A stretch of 23,985 nt of DNA, taken from IMG/VR virus record IMGVR_UViG_3300023179_006039, positions 1 to 23,985 of that record. One strand, written 5' to 3'. The notes beneath the pieces were generated by a model, which ran no database searches, was not told the origin of the DNA, and saw only the letters and a list, made by a program, of their open reading frames with translations. The position numbers and the translations under genes are program-made. Below are positions 6,410 through 23,985 of this stretch, piece after piece. This DNA comes from a virus. Each line of letters opens with the position of its first letter. The stretch's first letter is position 1.

Positions 6410-6439
6410 TTTGGCTCCCCGAAGGATTGTTCGTATATT
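6410..6439 (+). promoter_or_regulatory. Promoter-like site (TTTG-N20-TATATT)
   Basis: TTTG at 6410-6413, 20-base spacer, TATATT at 6434-6439. The stretch GTTCGTATATT (6429-6439) is shared with the sites before 7257 (except the first base position context) and 20111, so this subgroup has an extended -7 region. The gap to the ATG at 6461 is 21 bases, with an A-rich leader ending in GGTTATG. Confidence 0.65.
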
Positions 6440-6460: not shown

Positions 6461-6691
6461 ATGAACATCGAAGAAATTTACCAAGCAGAACAAGAGTTAG
6501 AACGTTACAACTCCATTATGTCGTTTAAAGAAATCCTTACTCAAGAGGATTATGATTTTTGTAAAGAATGGGATGCAGAAGAAGCATTTCAATGTTTGAA
6601 TGATCTTGGTAATGGTCGTTATTTGAATATCAATGTGTATTCTGAGGCAGATAAAGAAGATTATGATTTAAGAAGGGAGCAAGGTATATGA
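6461..6691 (+). CDS. Small acidic protein, function unknown
   Basis: A 76-residue acidic protein rich in E, D and Y, with no motif I recognise and no membrane segment. It opens a two-gene unit behind a TTTG-N20-TATATT promoter. Its stop overlaps the next start as ATGA, which supports both as real and translationally coupled. The sequence context before the ATG (AATAAAGGTT) is A-rich without a Shine-Dalgarno, as for its neighbours. Small acidic proteins directly behind strong promoters are often host-takeover factors in T4-like phages. That role is only an inference here. Confidence 0.65.
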   Translation: MNIEEIYQAEQELERYNSIMSFKEILTQEDYDFCKEWDAEEAFQCLNDLGNGRYLNINVYSEADKEDYDLRREQGI

Positions 6692-7200
6692 GCATGATTG
6701 AAGATTGTCTAAAGTGGAAAGCCACTTATGACCCAACCCCCCCAAAGCCAAACAAAACTTACAACAAGTTTTTTTGGTGGAGGCGTTATCAAGAACACAA
6801 AACATTGTCTAAGATGGCCTCTATTTGGGATAAGGTCAAAAACGGTGATTATGATGTTACTCCGTATTACAAACAACGAGAGTATGAATTTTGGTTTGAA
6901 GAACAGGAAATTTCCAAATATAAAGCCAATTATACCGGTTCTCATGAAAATATCAACTGGCAAGAACGTCAAATATCAAAATTGTATTGGCAACGTCGCA
7001 AACGTTTGTTAAATGATGCTGAACGTGATGAACTTAACCGTTGGACCACATTTGTCAAAGATGTTAAAACGTGTTTTGGTGGTACTGAGGAACAAATTAA
7101 AGATATGTTTGAATCGTTTGAAGGAACCATACCTGAGTTTTTAGAGGCATATAGAGCTACAAGAAATCTTCCAAAACTTCAGCCTGTTCCTAAATTTTAA
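6688..7200 (+). CDS. Hypothetical protein, Trp/Tyr-rich and basic in its first half
   Basis: A 170-residue protein that I do not recognise. The first two thirds are rich in aromatic and basic residues (FFWWRRYQEH, NWQERQISKLYWQRRKR), which suggests nucleic-acid or protein binding. The C-terminal third is more acidic and ends in a proline-rich stretch (LPKLQPVPKF). No signal peptide or membrane segment is visible. It is coupled to the upstream gene through an ATGA overlap and ends just before the next promoter, so these two genes form a short unit of their own. Confidence 0.65.
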   Translation: MSMIEDCLKWKATYDPTPPKPNKTYNKFFWWRRYQEHKTLSKMASIWDKVKNGDYDVTPYYKQREYEFWFEEQEISKYKANYTGSHENINWQERQISKLYWQRRKRLLNDAERDELNRWTTFVKDVKTCFGGTEEQIKDMFESFEGTIPEFLEAYRATRNLPKLQPVPKF

Positions 7201-7201
7201 C

Positions 7202-7230
7202 TTGGGGGGTTAAAATAGGGTTCGTATATT
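7202..7230 (+). promoter_or_regulatory. Promoter-like site (TTG-N20-TATATT)
   Basis: TTG at 7202-7204 (CTTG from 7201), exactly 20 bases, then TATATT at 7225-7230 inside GTTCGTATATT. The run TATATTTATG that follows is a good fit to a Bacteroidetes -7 element. The leader to the ATG at 7257 is 26 bases and A-rich (AATAAACATAAAAAC). The -33 box lies immediately after the stop codon of the preceding gene. Confidence 0.65.
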
Positions 7231-7256: not shown

Positions 7257-7496
7257 ATGGATAACTTTGATTTAAAAAAGTACTTAGTAGAAAACAAGGT
7301 AACTACTAATTTTAAAATGACAGAAGAAACATCAAATAATTTAGCTATCGAAAAAGCTAAAAAATTGGTAGAAACATTCGGTAAAGAACTTGCTGTAAAA
7401 GTAGTAGAAGAAATTCAGAATACAAAAGCAGTATATGCAAGTGATACTGAGTATGACTATTGGGAAGAAGTTAAACAAGCAATAGAAAAATTATGA
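7257..7496 (+). CDS. Small hypothetical protein
   Basis: A 79-residue protein of unknown function, mostly predicted helical by eye, with alternating K/E and hydrophobic residues (AIEKAKKLVETFGKELAVKVVEEI). It begins MDNFDLKKYLVENK, a style of N-terminus I associate with short proteins in Bacteroidetes phages, but I cannot assign a family. It is the first gene behind its own promoter and overlaps the next gene by ATGA. No cysteine, signal peptide or membrane segment is present. Confidence 0.6.
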   Translation: MDNFDLKKYLVENKVTTNFKMTEETSNNLAIEKAKKLVETFGKELAVKVVEEIQNTKAVYASDTEYDYWEEVKQAIEKL

Positions 7497-7723
7497 CAAA
7501 TAGTAAACAACAAATGGCAGTGGATTTTTTAGTTGAAAAAATGCTAACCCAAGATTGGTACACTTATAAATCTTTAGAGTATATCAACCAATCTAAAGAA
7601 ATAGAGAAAGAAAAAATGATAGATTTTGCTTGCCTATGTATGTTTGGAGATAAAAATGTTGGTATTAATTTAAGAAATGACTTTGTTAGAAAATACAACG
7701 AAATCTACGGAGGAGGTGAATAA
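7493..7723 (+). CDS. Small hypothetical protein
   Basis: A 76-residue protein with no recognised domain. It has a mixed-charge helical middle (YINQSKEIEKEKMIDFACLCMFG) with two cysteines two residues apart, and an aromatic C-terminus (YNEIYGGGE). The start overlaps the upstream stop as ATGA, supporting translational coupling. It is the last gene before the hairpin at 7738, so it ends a two-gene unit that began at the promoter near 7202. Confidence 0.55.
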   Translation: MTNSKQQMAVDFLVEKMLTQDWYTYKSLEYINQSKEIEKEKMIDFACLCMFGDKNVGINLRNDFVRKYNEIYGGGE

Positions 7724-7737
7724 TAAAAAATTTAAAA

Positions 7738-7756
7738 GAGCCCTGTAAAAGGGCTC
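7738..7756 (+). terminator. Probable intrinsic terminator hairpin
   Basis: GAGCCC (7738-7743), a 7-base loop, and GGGCTC (7751-7756) form a perfect 6-bp G+C-rich stem, which stands out in this AT-rich sequence. On the + strand the following bases (AAATTCTG) are not a clear U-tract. On the - strand the stem is followed by TTTTAAATTTTTT. It closes the unit ending at 7723 by position. Efficiency on the + strand is uncertain. Confidence 0.5.
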
Positions 7757-7761
7757 AAATT

Positions 7762-7799
7762 CTGTAATATTTATAATCGACCAAAATTATAAATTACAG
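7762..7799 (+). repeat. Inverted repeat enclosing a TAATATTTATAAT motif, just before the homing endonuclease
   Basis: Left arm 7762-7777 (CTGTAATATTTATAAT), 8-base loop, right arm 7786-7799 (ATTATAAATTACAG). The arms pair throughout except for a two-base bulge. The left arm holds an exact copy of the 13-mer TAATATTTATAAT (7765-7777). The last base of the right arm is the first base of the GTG start codon of the GIY-YIG gene. Readthrough mRNA would fold the start region into the stem. A transcript started inside the element would not. Confidence 0.6.
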
Positions 7800-8431
7800 T
7801 GATACATATTACATACATTTATTTTCTTCATAAAGGTGATAATATACCTTTTTATATAGGAAAAAGCATTAATCCTGATTTAAGGAAAGCAGAACACAGA
7901 TGGAAAAAAAAAGGTGGAACTAAACCTGATTTTGTTATCATAGATGAAGTTCCTACTAGTGAATGGCTGTTTTGGGAAAAGTGGTATATTGAATTATTTA
8001 AAAGTTGGGGATTTATTTTAGAAAATAAAAATCATGGCGGGGGAGGAATGGTGAAACATTCGGATGAATCAAGATTAAAAATTTCAAATTCATTAAAAGG
8101 AAAAATCCATTCTAAAGAAACAAAAGAAAAAATGAAAAATAGTGCCTTGGGGAGACATCATACAGCACCCCAAAGTGAAAAATTATCCCAAAGCCTTAAA
8201 GAATATTATTTAAATAATGATGGAAGTTTTAAGGGAAAAAAACATACTATTGAAACAATATCTAAAATATCTAAACCTATTTATGCTTTTGATAAAAAAG
8301 GAAATCTAATAGAAGAATATGATTCTTTAAAATCCGCTGGAGAGGCACATCAAACTCACAGTGGGAATATTATAAAAAGTATAAAAAGAAATGGTTCTCT
8401 TCATGGTTTAATTTGGAAATATAAAAAATAA
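7799..8431 (+). CDS. GIY-YIG homing endonuclease with NUMOD3 and NUMOD1 modules
   Basis: A free-standing mobile endonuclease of the I-TevI/SegA type. The N-terminal catalytic domain has Y6-I7-Y8, Y19-I20-G21, R29, H33 and a candidate catalytic E60 in WEKWYIELF. The middle (about 83-155) has NUMOD3-like repeats (HSDESRLKISNSLKGK, HSKETKEKMKN, HTIETISKIS), which bind DNA. The C-terminus (about 158-208) matches NUMOD1 (PIYAFDKKGNLIEEYDS ... GLIWKYK). The only reasonable start is GTG at 7799: an in-frame stop lies at 7790 and the first ATG is around residue 83. It sits between intact genes, not inside one, so it is not within an intron. The hairpin-plus-motif leader suggests gated expression. Confidence 0.88.
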   Translation: MIHITYIYFLHKGDNIPFYIGKSINPDLRKAEHRWKKKGGTKPDFVIIDEVPTSEWLFWEKWYIELFKSWGFILENKNHGGGGMVKHSDESRLKISNSLKGKIHSKETKEKMKNSALGRHHTAPQSEKLSQSLKEYYLNNDGSFKGKKHTIETISKISKPIYAFDKKGNLIEEYDSLKSAGEAHQTHSGNIIKSIKRNGSLHGLIWKYKK

Positions 8432-13302: not shown

Positions 13303-13481
13303 CCGAGCCTGAAAAGTTAGCTTTAATATCTAAATTAGATTATGAGATGACTAAGGCTATTTTAAACGGACATAAATCTGTTGAGGGAGATAAATTTCAA
13401 GGACATAGGGATACTTTATTAAAATTACGAATAGAATTATTCCCCAATTCGATTTGGGCATTAGGGACAAAACAAGACTAA
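13299..13481 (+). CDS. Small hypothetical protein
   Basis: A 60-residue, mostly helical protein (EPEKLALISKLDYEMTKAIL ...) ending FPNSIWALGTKQD. No family is recognised. It overlaps the thioesterase stop by ATGA. Its stop codon overlaps the TAATATTTATAAT motif at 13479 that precedes the nuclease gene. Confidence 0.5.
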   Translation: MTEPEKLALISKLDYEMTKAILNGHKSVEGDKFQGHRDTLLKLRIELFPNSIWALGTKQD

Positions 13482-13491
13482 TATTTATAAT
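13479..13491 (+). promoter_or_regulatory. Exact 13-mer TAATATTTATAAT before the secreted nuclease
   Basis: One of four exact copies of this 13-mer, all in gaps just before gene starts. It begins in the stop codon of the preceding gene and ends 2 bases before the ATG at 13494. No TTTG box at a 20-base spacing is present. Proposed as a second promoter class or another regulatory element. By resemblance to T4 late promoters, its reverse complement contains TATAAATA. Confidence 0.5.
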
Positions 13492-13493
13492 AT

Positions 13494-14069
13494 ATGAAAA
13501 AGCTATTATTAATTTTGTTTTTGTTACCTTTAGTTGTGTTTTCTCAAAGAGACTCTGTCTACATTAAAACAGATATTTTTACTACAGTCTACTCAGAGAT
13601 ATTACAACAACCTAAATGGGTTAAATATACAGTACAATGTCCTACAGGTACTGCTCCTCGTACAGGAATGGATTTTTATCCCCAATCAGGATTAATTACA
13701 TCAGACAATAATGATTATGTTGATAATGTTTGGGATAAAGGACATTGCGCTCCAGCTGCTGATTTTAATTGTACAAAAGAAATGTTGTATAAAACCTTTA
13801 CTTATGCAAACTGTGTATTACAACACGAACGTTTAAATCGTGGAGTTTGGCGTTTATTAGAGTCATATGAGCGCGAACTTGCTAAAACCAACACCGTCAA
13901 CGTAGAAATTAAAATGGTGTATAGTACAACGTCTTTAAAATTACCTACAGGAGCTACTGTACCTGATGGATTCTATAAAACAATTAAGTTTGGAAATAAA
14001 ATTGAAAAATATTATTTTCCAAACACTTCACCAACATTAAGTCTTTTTAAATTATATTTGATAAAATGA
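13494..14069 (+). CDS. Secreted NUC1-type DNA/RNA non-specific endonuclease
   Basis: A Serratia-nuclease/NUC1-family (beta-beta-alpha metal) endonuclease that cuts DNA and RNA without strong sequence preference. An N-terminal signal peptide is clear: KK, then LLLILFLLPLVV, ending FSQ at about residue 18. The DRGH active site reads D81-K-G-H84 in WDKGHCAPAAD, with H84 the expected general base. N106 (in ANCVLQ), N115, W119 and E123 (in LNRGVWRLLE) match the metal-binding asparagine and the following conserved positions. At 191 residues it is a compact family member. It should act in the periplasm or outside the cell. A TAATATTTATAAT motif lies immediately upstream, and the stop overlaps the next gene by ATGA. 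A role in destroying host or competitor DNA is inferred. Confidence 0.85.
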   Translation: MKKLLLILFLLPLVVFSQRDSVYIKTDIFTTVYSEILQQPKWVKYTVQCPTGTAPRTGMDFYPQSGLITSDNNDYVDNVWDKGHCAPAADFNCTKEMLYKTFTYANCVLQHERLNRGVWRLLESYERELAKTNTVNVEIKMVYSTTSLKLPTGATVPDGFYKTIKFGNKIEKYYFPNTSPTLSLFKLYLIK

Positions 14070-16431: not shown

Positions 16432-19098
16432 ATGTATCAAGCTGTATTTTACGACAAAAACGAGAAACAATATTATTTACGTGATGATAGGTGGGATGGT
16501 TTTAAAACTGTCCAACATTGGCCTACCTATTATGTAGCTGATCCAGATGGTGAGTTTGTAACCTTAGAAGGTACACCTGTATCTCCTGTAAAAAAGATGG
16601 ATGATTGGAAAAATCCTAAATACTTTGAAAAGGATGTAGATAAGGATACTCGATTATTAGTTGATTATTATTACGAATCAGACGATACTCCTAAATTTCA
16701 CAACATTGTATTTTTAGATATTGAGTGCGAAATAGCAGGAGCATTAACTCCAGAAAACATTCGTAATCCTAAAGGTAAAATCACTTCAATTGCTCTTTAT
16801 GACAATAATTCTAAAAAATATTATTGTTTAGTTTTAGATGAAAAACAAATTATGAGTCCTAAATCTCATGATTTTAAAGAAGTTATCCCTTACATTAGTG
16901 AAAAGGATTTATTAAATGGATTCTTAGAGTTGTGGATTAAATTAGATCCTACAATTTCATCAGGATGGAATAGTGCATTTTTTGATATGCCTTATTTGTA
17001 CTTCCGTATGAAAAACATTTTAGGTGAGGAAACAGCATCTTACTTGTCTCCAATAAATAAAGTTATATATAACGAATATAACAGTGATGACCCGCTAACA
17101 ATTGGTGGTATTAATCACTTAGATTATATGTTGTTATTTAAAAAGTTTATCACTAAACAAGAACCATCTTATCGTTTGAATGATATTGGTACTAAGTATG
17201 TTAAGTTAGGTAAGATTGATTATGAGGGTTCGCTTGATAAATTGTTTGTAGACGATATAGATAAGTTTATTGATTATAACTTACGAGACGTAGAAATCAT
17301 TGTTGAGTTAGAGAAAGCACAAAAATATATTGAGCTGACAGTTAATATTTGTCACTTATGTCATACTCCATATGATACAATTTATTATTCAACGGTTTTA
17401 AATGATGGAGCTATTTTAACTTACCTCAAACGTAAAGGTGTAGTTTCACCTAATAAACCAACTACTTACAACCCAGGCTTAAGAGACATTAGTGTTAAAA
17501 AGGCTAAATTTGAATATGAAAAGGGTAATATTACAAAAGATGAATACGATGAAATAATATTATTAGCAGAATATGCTGGAGGTTATTTAAAAGATCCAAT
17601 CCCCGGTTTATATGAGTGGGTTATTGACTTAGATTTCACTTCATTGTATCCTTCAATCATTCGTTCACTTAACATGGGAATTGAAACATTAGTTGGTAGG
17701 GTTGTACATAGTGGTAAATTTGACAACCAGTGGTCATTAAAGGAATTAAAACAAATGGACCCTAAAAGAGTTGTTGATATTGAAAAGGTTAAAAAAGATA
17801 GAACACTTTCTATCTCTAAAATTAAAGTAGGTGACCTAGTAGAACTTATTGAAGAAAACGATTTATATATTTCGGCACCTGGGGTAATGTTTCGTAAAGA
17901 CAAGTTAAGTGTTGTTTGTGAAATTTTATCAGACTGGTTTGCTAAACGTCAAGAATATAAACGTTTAATGAAAAAAGCATATAAGGTTGATAAAGACCCT
18001 GTAATGGGGGCTTTTTATGATAAACGTCAACATGCTTATAAAATTAAATTGAATGATGTTTATGGTGTATTTGCTATTAATGGTTGGAGATACACAGATG
18101 GTAATAAGTTTATTAGTAAAGCTATTACTTTAACAGGACAACGCTTGTTACAAGAAAGTATTTCCAATATGAATGTTTATCTAAACAAGGAATTAGGTAA
18201 CGAAACACCAGTAGATTATATTATTACAAGTGATACAGATTCACTCTTCATTCAGTGTAAGGATTTATTAAAAGCAAGACATCCTGATATTGACTTTACT
18301 AATCATGAGGATGTAGTTAAAAAAATATTAGTAATTGCTACTGAGTTACAAGCAATGGCAAATAAGTTTATTGGTGAGTTTGCTGGAGAGGCTTTTAATT
18401 TAGGAGATGATGCCTTACACTATTTTGAATTAAAGCAAGAGGTTGTACTTGATAGAGGTTATTTTGCAGGTAAGAGAAGATACGCCCAACACATTATTAA
18501 TAAAGAAGGTGTACCAACAGATGAGCTAGATGTCAAAGGATTAGATTTGATGAAATCGAATTTCCCCCCATTGTTTAAAAAGTTTGGTGAACATCTTATT
18601 AATGAAATTATGTTTGGCAAGCCTAAATCAGATATTGATAAACAAATTCTTGATTTTAGAGCATCTGTAAGGACAATTGATTGGAGGAAAATTTTAAAAC
18701 CAACAGGACTAAAGATTCTAAAAGAATATATTGCCTCTGCCCCTAGATCAGGTGAGGTATTTTCTAAGTTAGGTTTAAAATGCCCTATTAATACTAAAGC
18801 AGCTATTTTCTATAATGATATTTTACGTTTTAAGGGATTAGATAAAAAATTCCCAACATTCCAAATAGGAGATAAAATGTATATTGCTTATTTAAAAGAC
18901 AATCCATACAGAATTGATGTTGTTGGTTTTAATGGTTATAATGACCCCCCAGAAATGATGGAGTTTATAGAAAAGTACATTGACAGAGATGGTTTATTTG
19001 ATTCAGTTATGAAAAATAAATTAGAGTCATTATATTCCGATTTAGGGTGGGGAGGTGTAGTGCTTAACCAAAACGTACATAAATTTTTTAAATTCTAA
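16432..19098 (+). CDS. Family B replicative DNA polymerase, T4 gp43 type
   Basis: The phage replicative DNA polymerase with proofreading. Exonuclease motifs: Exo I FLDIECEI (D96, E98), Exo II SGWNSAFFDMPYL, Exo III YNLRDVEII. Polymerase motifs: A DFTSLYPSI (D401), B K537-IKL-N541-DVYG, C TSDTDSLF (D601, D603). All catalytic acids are present. At 888 residues it matches T4 gp43 (898). It follows the overlapping terminator and promoter directly and is followed 18 bases later by the sliding clamp, its processivity partner. The C-terminus ends NVHKFFKF, the kind of short hydrophobic tail that binds the sliding clamp in gp43. That role is inferred. There is no intein or intron in this copy. Confidence 0.95.
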   Translation: MYQAVFYDKNEKQYYLRDDRWDGFKTVQHWPTYYVADPDGEFVTLEGTPVSPVKKMDDWKNPKYFEKDVDKDTRLLVDYYYESDDTPKFHNIVFLDIECEIAGALTPENIRNPKGKITSIALYDNNSKKYYCLVLDEKQIMSPKSHDFKEVIPYISEKDLLNGFLELWIKLDPTISSGWNSAFFDMPYLYFRMKNILGEETASYLSPINKVIYNEYNSDDPLTIGGINHLDYMLLFKKFITKQEPSYRLNDIGTKYVKLGKIDYEGSLDKLFVDDIDKFIDYNLRDVEIIVELEKAQKYIELTVNICHLCHTPYDTIYYSTVLNDGAILTYLKRKGVVSPNKPTTYNPGLRDISVKKAKFEYEKGNITKDEYDEIILLAEYAGGYLKDPIPGLYEWVIDLDFTSLYPSIIRSLNMGIETLVGRVVHSGKFDNQWSLKELKQMDPKRVVDIEKVKKDRTLSISKIKVGDLVELIEENDLYISAPGVMFRKDKLSVVCEILSDWFAKRQEYKRLMKKAYKVDKDPVMGAFYDKRQHAYKIKLNDVYGVFAINGWRYTDGNKFISKAITLTGQRLLQESISNMNVYLNKELGNETPVDYIITSDTDSLFIQCKDLLKARHPDIDFTNHEDVVKKILVIATELQAMANKFIGEFAGEAFNLGDDALHYFELKQEVVLDRGYFAGKRRYAQHIINKEGVPTDELDVKGLDLMKSNFPPLFKKFGEHLINEIMFGKPKSDIDKQILDFRASVRTIDWRKILKPTGLKILKEYIASAPRSGEVFSKLGLKCPINTKAAIFYNDILRFKGLDKKFPTFQIGDKMYIAYLKDNPYRIDVVGFNGYNDPPEMMEFIEKYIDRDGLFDSVMKNKLESLYSDLGWGGVVLNQNVHKFFKF

Positions 19099-19108
19099 TA
19101 TTTATAAT
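19096..19108 (+). promoter_or_regulatory. Exact 13-mer TAATATTTATAAT before the sliding clamp gene
   Basis: Begins in the polymerase stop codon and lies 8 bases before the clamp ATG at 19117. Identical to the copies at 7765, 13479 and 23793. No TTTG-like box lies about 20 bases upstream, which separates it from the other promoter class. Confidence 0.5.
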
Positions 19109-19116
19109 AAACAGTT

Positions 19117-19857
19117 ATGATTAATAAAGCAGATTTAGTTTCGATTATTTCAAAGTATTACCTGAATGGACTTATAGAGTCTGTTAAGTGGGAAATTGAA
19201 GACAAAAACCTTACTATCAAATTTACATCTAATGATAGAACTATGTTAGGTAAAATTACCTACAAAGGTATTGATTTAGAGGATTCGGTTATTGGTATTA
19301 GTAATACAACCCAATTAAACAGGTTGATTGCTATTACAAATGGTTATATTGATCTGAAGTATGTTAAGCAACACAAGATGATTACTAAACTAATCATTTC
19401 AGATAACCAATTCACTACAAATTATGCTTTAGCTGACACTATGATTATTCCTAAATCAGGAGAATATATTGGTGATGGTGTTTATAATATTGAGGCCGAA
19501 TTAGATAACGAAAGTATTAACGCTATTGTAAAAGCAAAATCAGCTCTTGTTGATAGTGATACAGTTGTTTTTAAACCTTACACAAATGCTGATGATGAAC
19601 TTCAGCTTGAAATGCAATTTGGAGGTAATGTTGAGCATGCAAATAAAGTATCATTTTTTGCTCCAAACATTACTACTAATAATTTACCATATGATTTTAA
19701 GGTTCAATATCTTTCAAACATTATTAAAGAAATTATGTATTGTAATAAGGATGTAGTATACTGTAAAATGAGTATTAATCTAGATGGAGTTATGAGACTT
19801 GCCTTTGATAATAAAAATTTACAAAGTGAATATTTTATTGTAGCAAAAGAAATTTAA
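19117..19857 (+). CDS. DNA polymerase sliding clamp, T4 gp45 type
   Basis: A 246-residue protein with the two-domain, strand-rich pattern of the gp45/PCNA-type trimeric clamp. T4 gp45 has 228 residues. It has no catalytic motif, as expected. Segments such as LVSIISKYYLNGLIESVKWE, KVSFFAPNITTN, YLSNIIKEIMYCNKD and GVMRLAFDN are typical of the clamp halves. The call rests largely on length, fold pattern and position: directly after the family B polymerase and in the same window as the gp44-like clamp loader. In T4-like phages gp45 also couples late transcription to replication, which would fit the late-type motif upstream, though this is inference. Confidence 0.85.
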   Translation: MINKADLVSIISKYYLNGLIESVKWEIEDKNLTIKFTSNDRTMLGKITYKGIDLEDSVIGISNTTQLNRLIAITNGYIDLKYVKQHKMITKLIISDNQFTTNYALADTMIIPKSGEYIGDGVYNIEAELDNESINAIVKAKSALVDSDTVVFKPYTNADDELQLEMQFGGNVEHANKVSFFAPNITTNNLPYDFKVQYLSNIIKEIMYCNKDVVYCKMSINLDGVMRLAFDNKNLQSEYFIVAKEI

Positions 19858-20074: not shown

Positions 20075-20091
20075 GGGAGAGTTCGTATATT
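20062..20091 (+). promoter_or_regulatory. Promoter-like site (TTTG-N20-TATATT)
   Basis: TTTG at 20062-20065 inside the end of the preceding gene, 20 bases, TATATT at 20086-20091 within GTTCGTATATT, as at 6429. The leader to the ATG at 20111 is 19 bases and ends in CTGTTATG. It would drive the groES-groEL unit. Confidence 0.65.
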
Positions 20092-23770: not shown

Positions 23771-23820
23771 ATTATTTCTTTATCTATTTTGATAATATTT
23801 ATAATAGATAAGGAAATAAT
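23771..23820 (+). repeat. Inverted repeat with TAATATTTATAAT in its loop, before the second GIY-YIG gene
   Basis: Arms 23771-23788 and 23803-23820 are 18 bases each and pair with a single G-T mismatch. The 14-base loop and first bases of the right arm contain the exact 13-mer TAATATTTATAAT (23793-23805). The ATG at 23826 is 5 bases beyond the repeat. The same layout occurs before the first GIY-YIG gene (7762-7799) although the arms are different in sequence. May also serve as a terminator for the clamp loader unit. Confidence 0.65.
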
Positions 23821-23825
23821 TCATT

Positions 23826-23985
23826 ATGGTAATATATTTAACTACAAATAAAATAAATGGTAAAAAATATTTAGGAAAAGATGTACAAAATAATCCCAAA
23901 TATTTAGGAAGTGGTTTAGATTTAAAAAAGGCCATTAAAAAATATGGTGCTGAAAACTTTAAAAAAACTATTTTAGAAGTTTGTA
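23826..23985 (+). CDS. GIY-YIG homing endonuclease, 3' end cut off by the window
   Basis: The first 53 residues of a second GIY-YIG endonuclease. VIYLTTNKINGKKYLGK gives the variant V2-I-Y4 and Y15-L-G17 motifs, and YLGSGLDLKKAIKKYG matches the stretch that follows in many phage GIY-YIG proteins. The catalytic arginine and glutamate region and any NUMOD domains lie beyond the window. It is distinct in sequence from the endonuclease at 7799. Inserted directly after the clamp loader gene, whose reading frame is intact, so it is free-standing rather than intronic as far as can be seen. Confidence 0.8.
   Translation, partial: MVIYLTTNKINGKKYLGKDVQNNPKYLGSGLDLKKAIKKYGAENFKKTILEVC

Follow-up and report, generated by a model that had tools for sequence, protein, structure and literature searches.

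The start-proximal hairpin and the promoter-like 13-mer of a GIY-YIG homing endonuclease gene very probably form a self-contained late-expression switch carried by the gene itself, as judged from sequence and RNA folding, namely the computed hairpin, the strand and gene-class specificity of the 13-mer, a gating specific to endonuclease genes, unrelated stems with compensatory changes, and the mobility of the cassette. The arrangement was identified in a 23,985-bp IMG/VR virus fragment (the window, i.e., the whole stretch of DNA analysed), which carries T4-like replication genes and a queC/queD/queE/folE-like set (names read from translations, mostly without a profile search) and closely matched none of 50,697 phage records at the DNA level. 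According to the proposed mechanism, readthrough transcripts from upstream genes would hold both arms, and the hairpin would occlude the start codon and early codons, presumably leaving the endonuclease without early translation; from the gene order, such RNA is presumed to extend to the gene early. Late transcription, probably via a phage gp55-like sigma factor, would then start at or just after the 13-mer, at a predicted position, and the resulting RNA would lack the 5' arm, leaving the start open and allowing the endonuclease to be made.

Homology searches supported the identity of the gene, with Pfam matches to NUMOD3 (7e-9), GIY-YIG (4e-4, just under the cut-off), and NUMOD1 (7e-4), and a PHROG match to the homing endonuclease family phrog_314 (6e-16), such that the catalytic domain and the NUMOD DNA-binding motifs of a GIY-YIG homing endonuclease are both present (Table 1). 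The Rfam search of the whole window matched no family; therefore, there is no sign of an intron at the endonuclease gene, and it does not classify as group I intron-encoded. A Shine-Dalgarno (SD)-like sequence was not found upstream of 7799, and only 1 of the 20 long ORFs of the window had such a motif. In the hairpin, positions 7762-7768 pair with 7793-7799 and 7771-7777 with 7786-7792, leaving a 2-nt bulge (7769-7770) and a loop (7778-7785), with G7799 serving as both the last base of the stem and the first base of the GTG. Its minimum free energy was -7.8 kcal/mol (z -4.55), which none of 200 shuffles equalled, confirming the proposal of the sequence-only reading that a hairpin here holds the 13-mer in one arm and abuts the GTG with the other. 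The stem (CTGTAAT../..ATTACAG) is AU-rich and of moderate stability, and the fold excess was weaker in the 75-nt context (z -1.45). In the second case, the stem is stronger, the 13-mer (23793-23805) lies in the loop and the 3' arm, and the hairpin sequesters the start region of a GIY-YIG gene that continues beyond the window end.

Table 1. Features of the window that bear on the hairpin, the 13-mer, and the endonuclease genes.
Feature	Position	Strand	Evidence
Mobile 5' cassette, approximate extent from the stem through the 13-mer hairpin and GTG to the first codons	7732..7830	+	Near-identical copies elsewhere
GAGCCC...GGGCTC stem, 5' of the hairpin	7738..7756	.	Fold and terminator-like scan
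5' arm of the start-sequestering hairpin (register W)	7762..7777	+	RNA fold z -4.55
13-mer TAATATTTATAAT, late-promoter-like, in the 5' arm of the hairpin	7765..7777	+	Exact copies; virion genes in relatives
3' arm of the hairpin, last base = G of the GTG start	7786..7799	+	RNA fold
3' arm in the alternative register S, complementary to 7765-7779 and covering the start region and codons 2-5	7797..7811	+	Register comparison with relatives
Free-standing GIY-YIG homing endonuclease gene, 210 aa, GTG start	7799..8431	+	Pfam, PHROG
13-mer without gating hairpin, 2 nt 5' of the non-specific endonuclease gene (13494); negative control	13479..13491	+	Fold test
Ungated 13-mer upstream of ORF 19117-19857 (negative control)	19096..19108	+	Fold test
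Second case: 17-bp hairpin around the 13-mer, before the GIY-YIG gene at 23826	23774..23828	+	ddG 12-15 kcal/mol

Gating was scored as ddG, i.e., how much more energy is required to open the start region (-20 to +13) in readthrough RNA than in RNA begun at the 13-mer end; this opening-energy difference replaced a first score based on spanning pairs, which was too loose to separate the gene classes. The measure assumes that transcription begins near the 13-mer end, and a 3-nt shift of that point changed little. At 7799, opening the start region cost 9-11 kcal/mol in readthrough RNA versus ~2.5-3 kcal/mol in RNA begun at the 13-mer end (ddG ~6-9 kcal/mol), and ddG was higher in the second case (Table 1). 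The endonuclease genes had a median ddG of 7.5 kcal/mol (>6 in 21/37), compared with a median of 1.3 in other genes with the same 13-mer (>6 kcal/mol in 1/50), and 13 of 200 unrelated ORF starts exceeded 6 kcal/mol. When distinct 5' cassettes were counted, 14 of 28 endonuclease cassettes exceeded 6 kcal/mol versus 0 of 38 non-endonuclease 13-mer cassettes (p = 1.7e-7), which bears out at the family level the T4-like gating logic that had been suggested for the window, with about half of the endonuclease cassettes showing weak or no gating by this metric. By computation, the hairpin sequesters the start in readthrough RNA both in the window and in the family, as in the T4 type. T4-like logic is thus the best-supported reading, strongly favoured by the controls at the family level, and the strong support for gating comes from these family-wide tests, not from the window hairpin alone. 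The 7799 cassette, which stood in the 37-gene set as an identical copy in L214, had a ddG of 5.2 (p = 0.049 vs shuffles) when a narrower region (-8 to +9) was used. This modest value, the weaker signal in the 75-nt context, and the AT-only composition of the 13-mer would suit an incidental hairpin, arising from chance self-complementarity of an AT-rich promoter beside an AT-rich start; that explanation is already disfavoured and highly improbable, given that the other 13-mer genes lack hairpin gating, that random ORF starts rarely pass the 6 kcal/mol level, and that GC-rich stems occur in several endonuclease cassettes (e.g., GAGACTCCG/CGGAGTCTC and GTGTGATCC/GGATCACAC).

The stems were mostly unrelated in sequence between cassettes, as illustrated by the window stem, the two GC-rich stems (of which GTGTGATCC/GGATCACAC spans the ATG), AATGGCAC/GTGCCATT, and TTCCTGTCATAT/ATATGACAGGAA. 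Compensatory changes were found in three cassette families, the alignments being small (6-8 rows) and some shuffle controls not extreme. One family changed from GATCC/GGATC to GTTCC/GGAAC with wobbles kept and 98.9% of cells paired, the count of pairs changed on both sides being reached by 303 of 500 shuffles. The family of the second gene of the window (23826) showed A-U to G-C and U-A to A-U changes with mismatched intermediates present. In the window cassette family, 73.6% of cells were paired in register W (the hairpin at 7762-7799), compared with 85.8% in register S, in which the partner of the 13-mer strand is the start codon with codons 2-5 and which showed C-G to U-A and U-A to G-C changes. 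Register S is imperfect in the window and near-perfect in L264, L265, L269, and L225. Accordingly, the exact stem described by the sequence-only reading is present, but another pairing, register S, is better conserved within its cassette family; as register S lies partly in coding sequence, its conservation could in part reflect protein constraint. Repeats that flank or overlap a promoter-like element might also constitute a DNA operator, through which a protein, perhaps the endonuclease itself, represses the late promoter, and I-TevI indeed binds an operator overlapping its own late promoter in an autorepression of this kind (PMC2988022). However, arms that are mostly unrelated yet complementary, with compensatory changes that include G-U wobbles, favour RNA pairing over a protein site, and in several cassettes the 3' arm extends past the start codon into the coding region, making an operator very unlikely as the explanation of the repeats; an operator and RNA hairpin gating could coexist.

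Four different endonuclease bodies carry an identical or near-identical cassette, from the GAGCCC stem to the first codons, and occupy three genomic contexts: two of the bodies precede ORF 8448-type genes, and the others precede an ssb-like gene and a homologue of ORF 19117, respectively (the names ssb-like, DpdA-like, and clamp-like were given by resemblance and position). In L012, L013, L016, and L027, a homologue of the gene at 6688-7200 is directly followed by a homologue of ORF 8448, and therefore the endonuclease gene and two small ORFs (7257-7723) represent extra DNA in this genome. Small ORFs with a DNFDL(K/R)K-like beginning recur beside endonuclease genes or behind the 13-mer (7257-7496 in the window, 1077-1403 in L214, and in L216, L158, and L160), and no Pfam match was obtained for the window copy. 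Taken together, it seems rather likely that the endonucleases spread with a portable timing cassette in which the late promoter strand doubles as the anti-start arm, with the cassette swapped among bodies and the arms repeatedly re-evolved, including their register, while gating is kept, and with the start codon hidden without a Shine-Dalgarno sequence, often in nearly leaderless late mRNAs.

For the 13-mer itself, which the sequence-only reading called a Bacteroidetes-type motif, the strand bias, the association with virion genes, and a phage sigma-fold protein point to a phage late-promoter element. The window has four exact copies of TAATATTTATAAT, all on the plus strand, versus 0.6 expected, and no copies with one mismatch. 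No reverse-strand copy was found in the 90 loci fetched first, in which shorter cores of the 13-mer occur on the reverse strand at low frequency. A minus-strand reading of the element was rejected because the copies are strand-specific and lie just 5' of same-strand genes. In relatives, the 13-mer occurs upstream of portal (phrog_213), tail tube (phrog_4542), and large tail-like genes, and five of the 13-mers at these genes directly follow a terminator-like hairpin. In Flavobacterium phage immuto (NC_055915), the core ATATTTATAAT occurs seven times forward and never in reverse, including before sheath, tube, spike, and fibre genes, and with at most one mismatch it lies upstream of 8/48 late genes versus 5/183 others (p = 0.001). 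In addition, the 13-mer (at most two mismatches, at most 60 nt upstream) preceded 23/31 GIY-YIG genes, most of them identified from their domain, not from the motif, versus 138/937 ORFs (p = 7e-13), a background set that may omit the ORFs of the window itself, with minor effect. About half of the exact 13-mers have a start codon 1-3 nt downstream (e.g., L122, L125, L133, and 13479 in the window), a spacing that predicts nearly leaderless late mRNAs. One such start, behind an ungated 13-mer, belongs to a gene (window 13494-14069) for a non-specific endonuclease, Endonuclease_NS, that may have a signal peptide. Another motif, GTTCGTATATT, recurs before other genes (window 6429-6439, 7220-7230, and 20081-20091) and is possibly an early or middle promoter. 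Reverse-complementing the T4 late box TATAAATA gives TATTTATA, which is also found within the 13-mer at 7765-7777; this may be a coincidence.

A candidate for the corresponding sigma factor was found in six relatives, all of at least 89 kb, as an orthologous sigma-fold protein of ~235-250 aa that is not in the window. Its best PHROG match was phrog_234, the gp55 late sigma family, at a weak E of 0.008-0.02. The best structural match of its AlphaFold model, of moderate confidence (pLDDT 70), was the T4 gp55 open-complex chain 7d7c_F (Z 11.0, rmsd 7.9 over 113 aa), and nearly all remaining structural matches were sigma factors, suggesting that the group encodes a sigma-fold protein resembling T4 gp55. 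The hhalign comparison with the T4 gp55 sequence was not significant, and a PDB sequence search with the candidate returned nothing relevant; of the three, the structural comparison gave the most information. The search with phrog_12791 matched no genome and was uninformative. Considering that the 13-mer is strand-specific, lies before virion genes, and occurs in a group with a gp55-like sigma-fold protein, it is probably the late promoter of this phage group, as deduced from gene class and strand.

Start sites and cleavage sites are indistinguishable by sequence alone, and an element before late genes also fits the processing of long late mRNAs, such that the 13-mer might instead be an RNA processing site, with late cleavage in or after it freeing a 3' part with an open start; gating would be the same and only its trigger would differ. 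This is unlikely, since several tail genes have the 13-mer directly behind a terminator-like hairpin, a place that calls for a new transcript, since anything from ~1 to 50 nt separates the element from the start, and since the protein best matching gp55 is present. Alternatively, the hairpin might act mainly as a transcription terminator or attenuator of readthrough RNA, with a late promoter in the loop letting only late RNA proceed. Several cassettes do have a terminator-like stem just upstream, and in cassette G017:C1:26025 (in L137), a GC-rich 11-bp hairpin with the element in its loop, followed by seven T, stands right before the ATG. Nevertheless, most cassettes, including that of the window, have no T tract after the hairpin, and the sole match of the terminator-like scan in the window hairpin region was on the minus strand, leaving little probability for termination as the main role. 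The endonuclease hairpin of G017:C1:26025 looks like a terminator that late RNA alone escapes. The GAGCCC...GGGCTC stem has a T tract on the minus strand only in the window and is terminator-like on the plus strand in L225 and L264.

Hairpin-gated endonucleases of the T4 type have been described in a few phages of Enterobacteria and Aeromonas. The present group is T4-like but distant, and it appears to use the same gating logic with another promoter, without a Shine-Dalgarno sequence, and recurrently before many endonuclease genes; no paper in the literature collection searched combined homing endonuclease, late promoter, Bacteroidetes, and phage. Gating was computed for roughly half of the endonuclease cassettes examined and for no non-endonuclease cassette with the 13-mer, a pattern suggesting selection for delayed expression in the mobile genes themselves. 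Moreover, many natural variants are on hand for testing how a start-codon hairpin gates translation without Shine-Dalgarno pairing, and a candidate late promoter is now available for Immutovirus-like Flavobacterium phages. The closest isolate, by the portal protein of a relative, was Flavobacterium phage vB_FspM_immuto_2-6A (Immutovirus, 58% identity), which carries a similar set with queC/D/E, folE, GroEL/ES, and DpdA and has the 13-mer core before late genes, but whose annotated T5orf172 (GIY-YIG-like) and HNH genes have no element directly upstream.

Reviews describe a hairpin/late-promoter logic for I-TevI, I-TevII, I-TevIII, segB, Aeh1 mobE, and the T4 genes e and soc (PMC2988022, PMC3014915). 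Similar to the three I-Tev systems, a hairpin in readthrough RNA would hide translation initiation here, with the putative promoter positioned to yield RNA without the 5' arm, and the endonuclease gene would lie within an early or middle transcription unit, as assumed from the gene order (PMC2988022, PMC3014915). Unlike these intron-encoded T4 endonucleases, the window gene is free-standing with no intron found, the start codon and early codons are hidden in place of a Shine-Dalgarno sequence, and the host is probably a member of the Bacteroidota, as assigned via the nearest isolate; the element on the coding strand is TAATATTTATAAT and not the T4 late promoter TATAAATA. T4 segB and mobE of Aeromonas phage Aeh1 are likewise free-standing endonuclease genes with an I-TevI-style promoter/hairpin arrangement (PMC2988022), but they are single genes of T4-type phages, whereas many unrelated stems and a portable cassette common to different endonuclease bodies were found here. 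T4 gene e is also similar, in that the 5' strand of its inhibitory start hairpin contains a late promoter (PMC3014915); e and soc are lysis and virion genes, whereas the non-endonuclease 13-mer cassettes examined here were ungated. In summary, the best-supported reading is that the switch would work like the gating of I-TevI, segB, and mobE, while differing from the T4 type in the strict sense in its promoter and in the role of the Shine-Dalgarno sequence.
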